Shown here piece after piece: positions 7,808-12,485 of a stretch of DNA of 21,049 nt; the first letter of the stretch is position 1, and the number at the start of each line of letters is the position of its first letter. The notes under the pieces were generated by a model that did not search any database, had not been told where the DNA came from, and saw only the letters and a program-made list of their open reading frames with translations. Source of the DNA: a virus; IMG/VR virus record IMGVR_UViG_3300044695_007798, positions 1-21,049 of that record; one strand, 5' to 3'. The position numbers were made by a program, and so were the translations under genes.

Positions 7808-8626
7808 CTACCTCTTCTTGGCAGGCGCGGTGGCCGGCTTCTTGGGGGTGCTCTTGGGCGCACTCTTGGCGGTCTGCTTGGGCTTCGGGCTCTTCGCCGC
7901 CGCGGCCGCCTTCGCCTGCTCTTCGCGAGCCTTGCGCGCCCGTTCGGCGAGCTCGGCTGCGAGCTTCTGCTGGTACTCGGCCTCGGAGACGCGGACCTTT
8001 CCGTCCTTGTCGAACCGCAGCTTGAGGAACTCCGGGTTCTCGACCTTGGGCGTCAGCGGCGTCTTAGACTTCAGGCGCGCCGCGATCTTGGGCTCGATGT
8101 AGTCGGAGTAGACGACGTAGTTAACCGCCTCGTCCGGCAGTTCCGCGGTGGGGTTGGCGCCCCACTCACGATACCGGCCGATGCCGGCGTTGTACGCCAC
8201 GGCGCGGCCCTGCTTGGAGACCTTGCCCTTGACCCCCTCGGAGATGAGCTGGGCGGCGATGTCGGCGTCGCGCAGGAACGGGTCCTTGATGGACTTGTTC
8301 TCGAGCTTTCGGTTGTCGGGCATGATCTGAAACGGTCCGGAGGCTCCCTTCTCTGAGGTCTTCGGGTTGAGCGGGTTGGGCTCCGTCCGTGTCTCGACGA
8401 TGTGCTTGGAGATGAGCTCTACCGGGTCGACGCCGTGGCGCTGCGCAATGGGCACCAGCGCCTGGTACAGGGGCAGCGCGCGCTCGATGTTGTTGTCGAG
8501 GTACGCCTGGCTGAGCGCCCGAAGAGCGGGCTTGGGCAGCTCAGCGAGCCGCGTCTCCGCCATGGCGAGCCGGCGCGCGGTCGCTGCGGGGCTCTCGTCT
8601 TCGTTGTTTGGCCGCGGCTTCGCCAT
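7808..8626 (-). CDS. Lytic transglycosylase, SLT-like fold
   Basis: 272 residues. The catalytic core shows the expected order: a helix with the likely catalytic glutamate E78 (HIVETRTEPNPL), GASGPFQIMP (94-103), DPFLRDADIAAQLIS (115-129) and AYNAG (144-148). These are hallmarks of SLT family 1 enzymes, which cleave the MurNAc-GlcNAc bond of peptidoglycan to give 1,6-anhydro-MurNAc. There is no signal peptide, so it is more likely carried in the virion and used at DNA entry than secreted. The tail (about 215-272) is Ala/Lys/Pro-rich and probably disordered. Ordinary T in place of S after the catalytic E (ET for ES) is tolerated in the family. Confidence 0.85.
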   Translation of the reverse strand: MAKPRPNNEDESPAATARRLAMAETRLAELPKPALRALSQAYLDNNIERALPLYQALVPIAQRHGVDPVELISKHIVETRTEPNPLNPKTSEKGASGPFQIMPDNRKLENKSIKDPFLRDADIAAQLISEGVKGKVSKQGRAVAYNAGIGRYREWGANPTAELPDEAVNYVVYSDYIEPKIAARLKSKTPLTPKVENPEFLKLRFDKDGKVRVSEAEYQQKLAAELAERARKAREEQAKAAAAAKSPKPKQTAKSAPKSTPKKPATAPAKKR

Positions 8627-8627
8627 G

Positions 8628-9056
8628 TCAGAACTTCATCACGGTCTTCTTGAGGAACGCGGGCGGGCCCTTCTTGGCCTTGGGCGCAGACTTGGGCTCC
8701 TCCGCGGGGAGCTCCTCGGTGTCCTCGCCCTCATCCTCTCCCTCGTCCTCGCTCTCGGCTTCCATCTTCTCGTCCTCGCCCTCGAGCTTTCCGCTCATGG
8801 CGAGCTGGTCGAGCTTGGCCGCGGTGGCCTTGAGCTGGGCGATGACGCTCTTGAGGTCCATGGACGGGGACCCCTTGGCCTTGTCCATCGTGGCGACGTC
8901 GTAGCCCTTCGGGTCGGTGTTCTCATCCTCCTGGCCCTCGGCCATCTCGAAGACGGCGGGACCCATGGCGAGGGGCTCTTCCGACATCATCGGATCGAAG
9001 TATCCGCCGGGCCCCGCGGCCTTCTTCTTGGCGAGGATAAGGATGGACCCGTGCAT
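8628..9056 (-). CDS. Acidic phage protein, 142 aa
   Basis: ATG 9056, with GGAG a few bases upstream. N-terminus MHGSILILAKKKAAGPGGYF, a helical section (SVIAQLKATAAKLDQLAMSG), a strongly acidic stretch (about 93-118, repeated EDEGED), then a basic tail AKKGPPAFLKKTVMKF. I recognise no family. The acidic block plus a basic end could act as a linker or chaperone-like element for the transglycosylase encoded next (stop and ATG one base apart), which is inference. It is the first gene after the divergent promoter region. Confidence 0.65.
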   Translation of the reverse strand: MHGSILILAKKKAAGPGGYFDPMMSEEPLAMGPAVFEMAEGQEDENTDPKGYDVATMDKAKGSPSMDLKSVIAQLKATAAKLDQLAMSGKLEGEDEKMEAESEDEGEDEGEDTEELPAEEPKSAPKAKKGPPAFLKKTVMKF

Positions 9057-9704: not shown

Positions 9705-10661
9705 TCAGGCGTTGGCCCACTTCACGGGCACGACGTGGCCTGGACCCCACGGGGTCTCCTGCACGACCATCTTCCGACCCCCCTTGTCGCTCCCAGGGAA
9801 CGGATCGAGGTCTTGGAAGCTCCGCTTGGAGCTCCAGTAGAAGTAGATCGGCGTCCCATCGACCATGCCCCAGTACCGAGACCACCCATTCTGGGTGTAG
9901 TAGTCGTGAAGAACCGCCTCGGGGACCGGAATCTTGTCGTTCGGGCCCACTTTCGACCAGCCTTCGGGCGTCGCGAGGTCCTCGGCGTCCTCCGGAGGCG
10001 CAGAAACGGGCTGATCGTCGCGATTTTCGGGCTGATCTTGCCGATTTTCCGCCTTCGCGCCCGACTTGTGGGCCCGCTCGAGGCTATCGAGGCCCCGAAT
10101 CAGCGCCATTCGGCCCACCGTCTCCGCCGTAACTTCGACTCCGAGCTCCTTGACATGCGGGAGCGCCTTGATAGTAGGAATAAGGCCGGTGATGCGTGCT
10201 TGAATATCGGCCTCGAGCCTGAGGGCCAGCAGTCCACGCGCTTCTGGGCCCGACTTCGTGTCGATAGAGCCGCCGATACGCTCGACTTGGGCTCGAGCCG
10301 AGGCGAACATGGCGCTTTCCAGGCGCTCCAGCCCGCCGCGCATGCCGGCGTCGTAGCTAGCCGCGTCGTCAAGGCGCTGCCGCATGGCCGTGTCGAGCTC
10401 CTTCGCTACTTCATGGCGCTTGGCGACCCTTGCGACGCCTTCTTCCGGCGTCTCGACCTCACGCAGCGCGGGCTTGTCGTTCTTCGACTGCTCCTCGTTG
10501 ACCCAGTCGGTGAGCTGGCGCATGCCGGTCGCGCCGACGCCGGGGATAATGACGTCGTCTTGACCGTCGAACCAAGACATGACGTCGAGGTCCGTATTGA
10601 AACCAGCTTTCAATAAGGCGTTGCGCAGGCGGAGCGGCAGTGGAAGATCGCTGACTAGCAT
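9705..10661 (-). CDS. Phage protein with RNA polymerase alpha-CTD-like N-terminus
   Basis: 318 residues from ATG 10661, GGGAGA five bases upstream. Residues 5-56 (PLPLRLRNALLKAGF; IIPGVGATGMRQLTDWV) align by eye with the C-terminal domain of RNA polymerase alpha: the leading L.L.R..N helix, the middle helix and the PGxG helix-hairpin-helix. R11 and N14 fall where E. coli R265 and N268, which contact UP-element DNA, lie; K298 and S299 are not kept. A helical middle (residues 100-210) includes LGVEVTAETVGRMALIRGLD, ribbon-helix-helix-like. A Gln/Asp/Pro linker and a Trp/Tyr-rich C-terminal domain follow. It could bind DNA or host polymerase. Its upstream region holds two copies of the phage dyad. 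Confidence 0.7.
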   Translation of the reverse strand: MLVSDLPLPLRLRNALLKAGFNTDLDVMSWFDGQDDVIIPGVGATGMRQLTDWVNEEQSKNDKPALREVETPEEGVARVAKRHEVAKELDTAMRQRLDDAASYDAGMRGGLERLESAMFASARAQVERIGGSIDTKSGPEARGLLALRLEADIQARITGLIPTIKALPHVKELGVEVTAETVGRMALIRGLDSLERAHKSGAKAENRQDQPENRDDQPVSAPPEDAEDLATPEGWSKVGPNDKIPVPEAVLHDYYTQNGWSRYWGMVDGTPIYFYWSSKRSFQDLDPFPGSDKGGRKMVVQETPWGPGHVVPVKWANA

Positions 10662-10708: not shown

Positions 10709-10723
10709 ACACCGCAACGGTAT
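10709..10723. promoter_or_regulatory. Dyad site 1 (ACACCG-CAA-CGGTAT)
   Basis: 15-bp interrupted palindrome, one mismatch from ATACCG-N3-CGGTAT. It lies 48 bases upstream of the alpha-CTD-like gene ATG, where a regulator would affect its promoter. Confidence 0.5.
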
Positions 10724-10782
10724 GACGACCACGCCAAAGCGCGAGCAGGCTGGGCCGCGCAGCGGTCCTGCCAGCATGCGTG

Positions 10783-10797
10783 TTACCGGAGTGGTAT
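10783..10797. promoter_or_regulatory. Dyad site 2 (TTACCG-GAG-TGGTAT)
   Basis: Same symmetry and spacing as site 1, with two mismatches to the ideal palindrome, 74 bases away (about seven helical turns). An A-rich tract lies just beyond it in the leftward direction, which could be an UP element. Confidence 0.45.
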
Positions 10798-10990
10798 GGG
10801 TGTTTGGAATTTTTTACTCGCCAATGGAAACGGCTTTCGGATTGGGGACCCCGGATCATCACAATCGGGGTATGGGGCCTTGTCGCTTCGATTACGCGGC
10901 GCGCGACGCGGCGTTGCGGCGCCGGCGCTGCGGTGGTGGCGCGCGCTTGCGTGGGCGGGGTGGGTCGCGCTCGCGGCGGGTGGGGCAAGC

Positions 10991-11085
10991 GAGCCGGAGC
11001 CGGAGCCGGAGCGAGCCGGAGCGTGAGCCGGAGCGGCGCCGCGCGTGGGCGAGCCGGAGCGGGTGAGCCGAGCCGAGCCGAGCCG
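10991..11085. repeat. GAGCCG low-complexity repeat block
   Basis: About eight near-perfect GAGCCG or AGCCG units in 95 bases with short interruptions (GAGCGT, GAGCGG). It is GC-rich and strongly purine-skewed on the plus strand between interruptions. It sits in non-coding DNA. It could be a slippage-expanded simple repeat or a set of protein-binding units. Confidence 0.75.
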
Positions 11086-11140
11086 TGAGGCGGACGCCCG
11101 AGCGAGCCGCGGCGGAGCGGGGCCCTAGCGGGGCTTGCCC

Positions 11141-11180
11141 ACGATCCATTGCACGCGACGATCCGCGTGCAACGGATCGT
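11141..11180. repeat. 17-bp inverted repeat with one mismatch
   Basis: ACGATCCATTGCACGCG (11141-11157) and CGCGTGCAACGGATCGT (11164-11180) flank a six-base spacer, ACGATC. Sixteen of 17 pairs match. As DNA it is a large operator or origin dyad; as RNA it is a very stable hairpin. No U tract follows, so it is not an obvious terminator. Confidence 0.75.
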
Positions 11181-11229
11181 CGGGCCTCACGTTGTCGAAG
11201 AGCGGGGGAGCGTTCCCGCCCCCACGATC

Positions 11230-11260
11230 TACATGTACCACGGGGCGCCAAATATGCAAG
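11230..11260 (+). repeat. 31-bp repeat copy A
   Basis: Matches copy B (11327-11357, opposite strand) at 26 of 31 bases. Shared blocks are TACATGTA, CACGGGGC and ATGCAAG. The core CCACGGGGC recurs inside the promoter spacer at 11454-11482, so these may be promoter-like or regulator-binding elements. Confidence 0.7.
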
Positions 11261-11326
11261 GTCCCGTAGCGCGAATATTGTCTTGTTCCCTGGTGAGCGC
11301 CCCCGCGGAAAATCGTGCGCCCCGCT

Positions 11327-11357
11327 CTTGCATGTTCCGGGCCCCGTGCTACATGTA
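11327..11357 (-). repeat. 31-bp repeat copy B, inverted
   Basis: Inverted partner of copy A, 26 of 31 identical when read on the minus strand, with the same TACATGTA, CACGGGGC and ATGCAAG blocks. The pair faces each other across 66 bases. Confidence 0.7.
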
Positions 11358-11453
11358 TTGTGTGCGGCGAGGGTCCTATCCCCTCCGACGCCGAAGCCCC
11401 TGAGGGGGCACGAGCCCCGGAACGACGACAAGCGAAAGTCTGAAGATTCTCCC

Positions 11454-11482
11454 TTGACGTACACCACGGGGCACGGTACATA
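11454..11482 (+). promoter_or_regulatory. Rightward promoter toward the Cys-rich gene
   Basis: TTGACG (11454-11459), 17 bases, TACATA (11477-11482), with TATAGA overlapping just after. The spacer contains CCACGGGGC, the core of the 31-bp repeats. A transcript from here would carry an untranslated leader of more than 300 bases before the ATG at 11814. Confidence 0.5.
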
Positions 11483-11572
11483 TAGAACATCAAGGGAAGG
11501 AACGCGGCGCCGCAAGGCTCGCAGCCCCTCCCCCGCTCTCTGACAACCTAGCCGCCACCGCGCGGACGCGAA

Positions 11573-11625
11573 TAGGGGACGTTGCCCCTAGGTCTACACT
11601 CCGCCGCTTCACACGCGGCGGGTAG
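11573..11625 (+). promoter_or_regulatory. Paired hairpins in the long leader
   Basis: TAGGGG/CCCCTA (11573-11590, six-base loop) is followed by CCGCCGC/GCGGCGG (11601-11621, seven-base loop). The second is extended by CTAC/GTAG across a three-base bulge. Neither is followed by a U tract. They could be leader RNA structures or single-strand origin features. Confidence 0.45.
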
Positions 11626-11672
11626 CCTTCAGGGCCCGTACCTGTGACGGACCTTGAGGCCTACCCGATAGC

Positions 11673-11687
11673 ATACCGCAACGGAAT
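11673..11687. promoter_or_regulatory. Dyad site 3 (ATACCG-CAA-CGGAAT)
   Basis: One mismatch from the ideal 15-bp palindrome. It is followed by ATGTTA, so TATGTT (11687-11692) falls at the same offset as the -10 at the 13468 site. This stretch and the 13468 site match at 16 of 17 bases. It lies 127 bases before the Cys-rich gene. Confidence 0.6.
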
Positions 11688-11762
11688 ATGTTACGGATAG
11701 TCGCGCCCTAGGGCCCCGCCGTTCAACGCGGAGCCCTTAGGGCTACCCTACCCTACCCCATA

Positions 11763-11808
11763 CCCTAGAACGCGCTCCTGAGCGTTCCTAGGGCCCTTCC
11801 AGAGGAAG
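11763..11808 (+). promoter_or_regulatory. Hairpin and SD-masking stem before 11814
   Basis: CCCTAGAACGC (11763-11773) pairs with GCGTTCCTAGGG (11782-11793) with one bulged base. Immediately after, CTTCC (11796-11800) pairs with GGAAG (11804-11808), which is the SD of the gene at 11814. The arrangement could restrain translation until the stem is opened. Confidence 0.4.
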
Positions 11809-11813
11809 ATACC

Positions 11814-12485
11814 ATGCTGAACGATACCGATATCCTTTGGGCTCCGCGGAGCCGCAACGTCAAGACGGGCGACGTACCTACGGCGTGGGTCGGCCTGAGC
11901 AAGAGCGCGGGCCTTGAGTCGTGCCGCGGGTGCCCCATGGCCCCGCGGAGTGTCGGCGGCGACGGGTCGTGTTACTCGCATAGCGGCTCCCCCGCGATTG
12001 CGGCCTCTTCCATCCGGAAGGCTGCGGCCCGCGGCGTGGCCCGCGACCTGACGGCGGCGCTCCGTGAGTCTAGCCGAGCAGCTCGCATGGTCCGGTACAC
12101 GGCTATTGGCGACGGCGGGCGCGTTGCCCCCGGCGTGGCGGACAAGATCGTCTCCACGGTCAAGGCCGCCGGCCTTGCCTTCGTCGGCTATACGCACCAT
12201 TGGCGGGAAGCTCAGGTAGCTACCGACTGGCGCGGTCGGCTTATGGCTTCCGTCGGCTCCCTCGCTGAAGCGGACGAAGCCCTTGCGCAGGGCTGGAGGG
12301 CCGCGGCGGTCGTCTCCGTCGATCATCCGGCGCGGAGCGTGACGCCCCAGGGCGCGCGGGTCGTTGTGTGCCCGGCCCAGGTCTCGGACGGTCGTGTGAC
12401 CTGCAATGATTGCCGCCTGTGCGACGCTAGCCGTCCCGGTCCCGTGATCGCCTTCCGTGAGCACGGTAACGGCGTCAAGCGCTAG
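11814..12485 (+). CDS. Cysteine-rich conserved phage protein, unknown function
   Basis: 223 residues from ATG 11814 with AGGAAG five bases upstream. Cysteines are arranged as C37-x2-C40 and C53 near the start and C186, C197-x2-C200-x2-C203 near the end, with CYSHSG (52-57), YTHHW (126-130), LMAS and CDASRPGP between. I recall this layout (KTGDVPT, GYTHHWRE, CPAQ, C.DC.LC) as a widespread phage and bacterial family of unknown function, possibly the one named DUF7227; the accession is from memory. The two Cys groups suggest a bound metal or iron-sulfur cluster in a barrel-like fold, which is inference. It is monocistronic, after a long structured leader. Confidence 0.8.
   Translation: MLNDTDILWAPRSRNVKTGDVPTAWVGLSKSAGLESCRGCPMAPRSVGGDGSCYSHSGSPAIAASSIRKAAARGVARDLTAALRESSRAARMVRYTAIGDGGRVAPGVADKIVSTVKAAGLAFVGYTHHWREAQVATDWRGRLMASVGSLAEADEALAQGWRAAAVVSVDHPARSVTPQGARVVVCPAQVSDGRVTCNDCRLCDASRPGPVIAFREHGNGVKR

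Follow-up and report, generated by a model that had tools for sequence, protein, structure and literature searches.

What role does a domain resembling part of RNA polymerase play at the start of a phage protein? The locus that raises this question lies in a window of 21,049 nucleotides, the whole stretch analysed here. This 21-kb stretch comes from an unclassified environmental phage and encodes a terminase, a DUF927 primase/helicase, and a portal of the P22/SU10-like type. The terminase has at best about 25% identity to annotated phages, and the portal has no match among annotated phages and pointed to no host. Rfam and tRNA searches across the window were empty.

The gene of interest is an open reading frame for 318 aa on the minus strand (10661-9705), and its ATG start is preceded by GGGAG. 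It is a real gene and is kept in the same slot across relatives, where it converges with the structural module. Also conserved in relatives are genes for a lytic transglycosylase and a small acidic protein (7808-9056), which are carried on the other strand from the structural genes around them. The 318-residue protein can be divided into the following parts.

9705..10661, minus strand: whole gene, 318 aa (open reading frame and conservation)
10488..10661, minus strand: alpha-CTD-like N-terminal domain, residues 1-58 (profile, Pfam, fold, and conserved residues)
10242..10487, minus strand: variable linker, about residues 59-140 (alignment; pLDDT mostly below 60)
10071..10241, minus strand: ribbon-helix-helix (RHH)-like segment, about residues 141-197 (sequence pattern; corresponds to the N-terminus in distant orthologs)
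9708..9980, minus strand: Trp/Tyr-rich C-terminal domain, residues 228-318 (conservation; no known family)

As a single query the window protein matched nothing in Pfam (full length) or NCBIfam, and PHROGs and the PDB gave chance-level matches alone. No relatives were found in annotated phages, plasmids, or bacterial genomes.

The alpha-CTD-like domain and its DNA-contact residues

Residues 1-58 are homologous to the C-terminal domain of the RNA polymerase alpha subunit (alpha-CTD) but have diverged from it, and the protein is not a polymerase subunit. This follows from profile comparison, Pfam scans, a fold match, and scores that fall below the family cut-off. The alignment contained 12 non-identical relatives with the N-terminal domain (13 members including the window; L048 was added later). 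When its profile was compared with the PDB, alpha-CTD chains ranked first, and the Bacillus alpha-CTDs had E-values of 0.0013-0.0016. In Pfam scans of the members singly, RNA_pol_A_CTD was matched weakly in all 13 (best 2e-4, window 0.29) and HHH_5 in one, showing that a generic helix-hairpin-helix (HhH) is not the better match. The N-terminal piece of the window protein scored 11.3 bits, below the curated PF03118 cut-off of 23.8 bits. A six-frame search of the whole records of eight relatives with PF03118 found exactly one match apiece, always in this gene, with scores of 10.7-19.6 bits that are likewise all below the cut-off. The window domain alone is too divergent to call, and its identity becomes clear once the 12 relatives are included.

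The predicted model of the domain has a pLDDT of 87. It superimposes on the Bacillus alpha-CTD 1z3e_B with a Z-score of 9.1 and an rmsd of 1.5 Å over 56 residues. The top 27 rows of the fold search are all alpha-CTDs, and RAD51-type HhH domains come next with Z about 7. The preliminary description had stated from the sequence that the N-terminus follows the alpha-CTD pattern and that the remainder is unrelated to polymerase, and it had proposed a profile search and a structure prediction as checks. Both checks agree with the first statement. The second is also borne out, as the domain is N-terminal and is followed by unrelated sequence, with no alpha N-terminal dimerisation domain attached.

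The main DNA-contact residues of alpha-CTD have been kept. In the structural alignment, residues 1-58 of the model correspond to residues 255-311 of E. coli alpha, the numbering differing by 254 over the first half, and the GxG hairpin sets G43 at E. coli G296 (offset 253). This confirms the earlier placement of R11 and N14 at R265 and N268. R11, N14, and G43 are invariant in the 13 members. Both R265 and N268 are required for contact with UP-element DNA (PMC11434276). Conservation in 12 or more of the 13 rows holds for five of the seven DNA-contact positions and for 13 of the 51 others (Fisher p 0.025, from a small test whose rows are related). The equivalents of K298, S299, and E302 are not kept; most members have T, G, and Q/A/T there.

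True alpha-CTD homology, on an arm tethered much as in polymerase alpha, raises the alternative that the arm acts on the host polymerase itself. It could contact host sigma region 4 or activators, or compete for UP elements, and thereby recruit or misdirect the enzyme. Retention of the D259 equivalent (D5) in 12 of the 13 members is consistent with such a role. However, E261 is a sigma-facing residue of alpha-CTD, and its equivalent is a proline in every member; it is the DNA face alone that is recognisably retained. We consider this mode of action unlikely.

The remainder of the protein and the history of the domain

The middle segment is plausibly RHH-like, judging from its sequence. The preliminary description had suggested this. 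A strand-helix-helix sequence pattern fits RHH, and comparison with PDB profiles gave a weak match to the RHH domain of PutA (2jxg, E 1.5). On the other hand, no RHH family in Pfam matches the segment, and the monomer model has a helix at the position expected for the RHH strand. Within the protein, conservation is highest in the C-terminal domain (228-318). Its PDB profile matches reached E 0.64 at best, its tblastn search gave chance-level terminase matches alone, and no relative is recognised by sequence outside this phage group. A fold search with the whole model gave a single viral match, of 188 aa (E 1e-11).

A search with the C-terminal domain found about 15 additional, more distant loci. 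Except for L048, these encode proteins of about 177-197 aa (the start in L049 is uncertain) that consist of an N-terminal RHH-like segment and the C-terminal domain, without the alpha-CTD. The RHH-only orthologs occupy the same slot, next to a homolog of gene 6501+. In a tree of this neighbour, all 14 alpha-CTD phages fall beyond one branch (support 100/99). Since these phages form one clade, the domain was probably gained once, onto an older regulator. The clade is nested among the RHH-only phages under a midpoint root, the root not being independently known, and the domain may instead have been lost elsewhere. G010, whose ortholog in the slot is RHH-only, has a separate 169-aa protein with a C-terminal alpha-CTD that scores 33.5 bits, over the Pfam cut-off (L079:2031-2540, minus strand), showing that alpha-CTD domains circulate in this phage group.

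Palindromes and the A/T tract upstream of the gene

The region upstream of the gene contains several palindromes and an A/T tract.

10711..10724, minus strand: palindromic site 2, CATACCGTTGCGGT, then GTTACG
10785..10798, minus strand: palindromic site 1, CATACCACTCCGGT
10808..10816, minus strand: A/T tract in an UP-element-like position, immediately upstream of site 1
10844..10852, no strand assigned: palindrome GGGGACCCC, conserved upstream in relatives
11672..11685, plus strand: CATACCGCAACGGA, a third site that has one mismatch and precedes the divergent DUF7227 gene by about 130 nt

In the relatives this region has a conserved layout, in which GGGGWCCC is accompanied by an A/T tract and by between one and three TACCRCNNCGGTA-type palindromes. 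Within the window GGGGACCC is not rarer than chance, its sole support being its conserved position. In the alpha-CTD clade (204 kb) there are 33 occurrences of ACCGN3CGGT compared with 2.2 expected by shuffling, and in the RHH-only loci there are 11 occurrences of TGACN5GTCA compared with 0.7 expected; both counts overstate the number of independent events because the relatives share kinship. No ACCGN3CGGT was found in the RHH-only loci.

Five relatives have an exact composite of the form TTGAC-N4-8-TACCN4CGG, and reversed-pattern controls gave none. TTGAC composite sites are often 50-70 nt ahead of an open reading frame. From their sequence, the composites resemble sigma70-type promoters whose spacer contains an operator. 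Palindromes of the ACCGN3CGGT type were observed between TTGAC and the -10 of sigma70-like promoters in L064, L068, L070, L073, L075, and L078. It is possible that the palindrome-bearing promoters of the relatives form a phage regulon.

The preliminary description had drawn attention to an A-tract upstream of the gene as a candidate target of the domain. The tract exists (10808-10816; AATTTTTTA when read on the plus strand), and all 13 members have an A/T tract just upstream of site 1. As a target of the domain it is weakened. Orthologs without the alpha-CTD domain have A/T tracts at the same promoter position, so the tract is not diagnostic of the phage domain, and it was rejected as a mark of binding by that domain. 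The tract may simply serve the host polymerase as an UP-like element.

A recognisable palindromic site is found at the gene's own promoter in all 13 members, which fits autoregulation. The palindromes might instead be bound by a different phage regulator, with the 318-aa gene as one target. Variation in the residues expected to face DNA on the putative RHH strand, set against a constant palindrome, suits this alternative. The presence of a site at this promoter throughout the members argues against it, as does the switch in site type together with protein architecture, and we find it improbable. Equally doubtful is a non-specific DNA-binding HhH on a protein for packaging, replication, the nucleoid, or the virion: the gene adjoins structural genes and shares a strand with the lytic transglycosylase gene, and RAD51-type domains are just 2 Z or so lower, but sequence profiles prefer alpha-CTD throughout and the promoter palindromes would suit an autoregulator.

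A proposed regulator and its comparison with known systems

The explanation that we favour, with somewhat more confidence than doubt, is a phage transcription regulator with an RHH-like core, the C-terminal domain, and the alpha-CTD-like arm as a second DNA-binding module. The core would be an RHH-like dimer module together with the conserved C-terminal domain, to whose N-terminus the alpha-CTD-like domain and a flexible linker would have been joined in this phage lineage. We infer that the protein binds DNA, the core recognising ACCGN3CGGT sites in the promoter of its own gene and in a small number of further phage promoters. Several such sites fall between the -35 and -10, where binding would repress or tune the promoter. 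The arms would add minor-groove contacts on neighbouring DNA, comparable to the two tethered alpha-CTDs of polymerase. More tentatively, the fused arm could read the A/T tracts beside the palindromic operators, competing with or replacing host alpha-CTDs at phage promoters. Its gain would then have accompanied an operator change from TGACN5GTCA, overlapping the -35, to ACCGN3CGGT in the spacer.

The phage domain shares with the RNA polymerase alpha-CTD (PF03118; 1z3e_B, 1lb2, 3n97) its fold, its helix order, the equivalents of R265, N268, and G296, and a flexible tether to the adjacent domain. In contrast to polymerase alpha, the phage protein lacks the alpha N-terminal domain and has the alpha-CTD-like domain at its N-terminus. 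It also differs in the changed equivalents of K298, S299, E302, and E261, and the window copy is under the Pfam cut-off. RHH regulators fold as a beta-strand and two helices into an intertwined dimer, and their palindromic operator usually lies in the promoter of their own gene. With RHH autorepressors such as the PutA N-domain and the RelB type, the short phage orthologs share a strand-helix-helix pattern at the N-terminus, and the phage orthologs share a palindrome at their own promoter. Unlike the autorepressors, the phage protein has no Pfam RHH match, a long inter-helix loop, an extra C-terminal domain, and the alpha-CTD arm.

Phage alpha-CTD proteins were known before as database annotations. 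Small proteins with such a domain are encoded by Bacillus phage Goe8 (c00050), Microbacterium phage Mazun (gp26), Mycobacterium phage Morty007 (gp51), and Rhodococcus phage Finch (A0A2P1JY10). The Goe8 and Mazun proteins have the domain at the C-terminus and the Morty007 protein has it near the N-terminus; in these three, which were aligned, neither an RHH-like nor a Trp/Tyr-rich domain was seen. The 169-aa protein of G010 comes from the same broad phage group but is encoded by a separate gene. In the open-licence papers searched, phage-encoded alpha-CTD-like domains were neither the subject of a study nor assigned a function. To the extent tested, novelty lies in the combination of alpha-CTD, RHH-like, and Trp/Tyr-rich domains, in its one-time gain, and in the operator change paired with it. 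If the proposal is true, a phage regulator has taken up the flexible promoter-binding domain of polymerase as a reusable module. Orthologs that have the arm and orthologs that lack it share a gene slot but differ in their operators; they would form a natural before-and-after comparison, and therefore the contribution of an alpha-CTD arm to a DNA-binding protein would be directly testable.

The divergent neighbour with the one-mismatch palindrome upstream encodes a DUF7227 protein (PF23872, phrog_2554; 11814-12485). Before it is a region of about 0.7 kb (11085-11815) without a convincing gene. This region has long imperfect inverted repeats (11230-11260/11327-11357), a strong hairpin (11138-11183), and repeated motifs resembling TACATGTA..CACGGGGC, and it could be an origin or a regulatory region.
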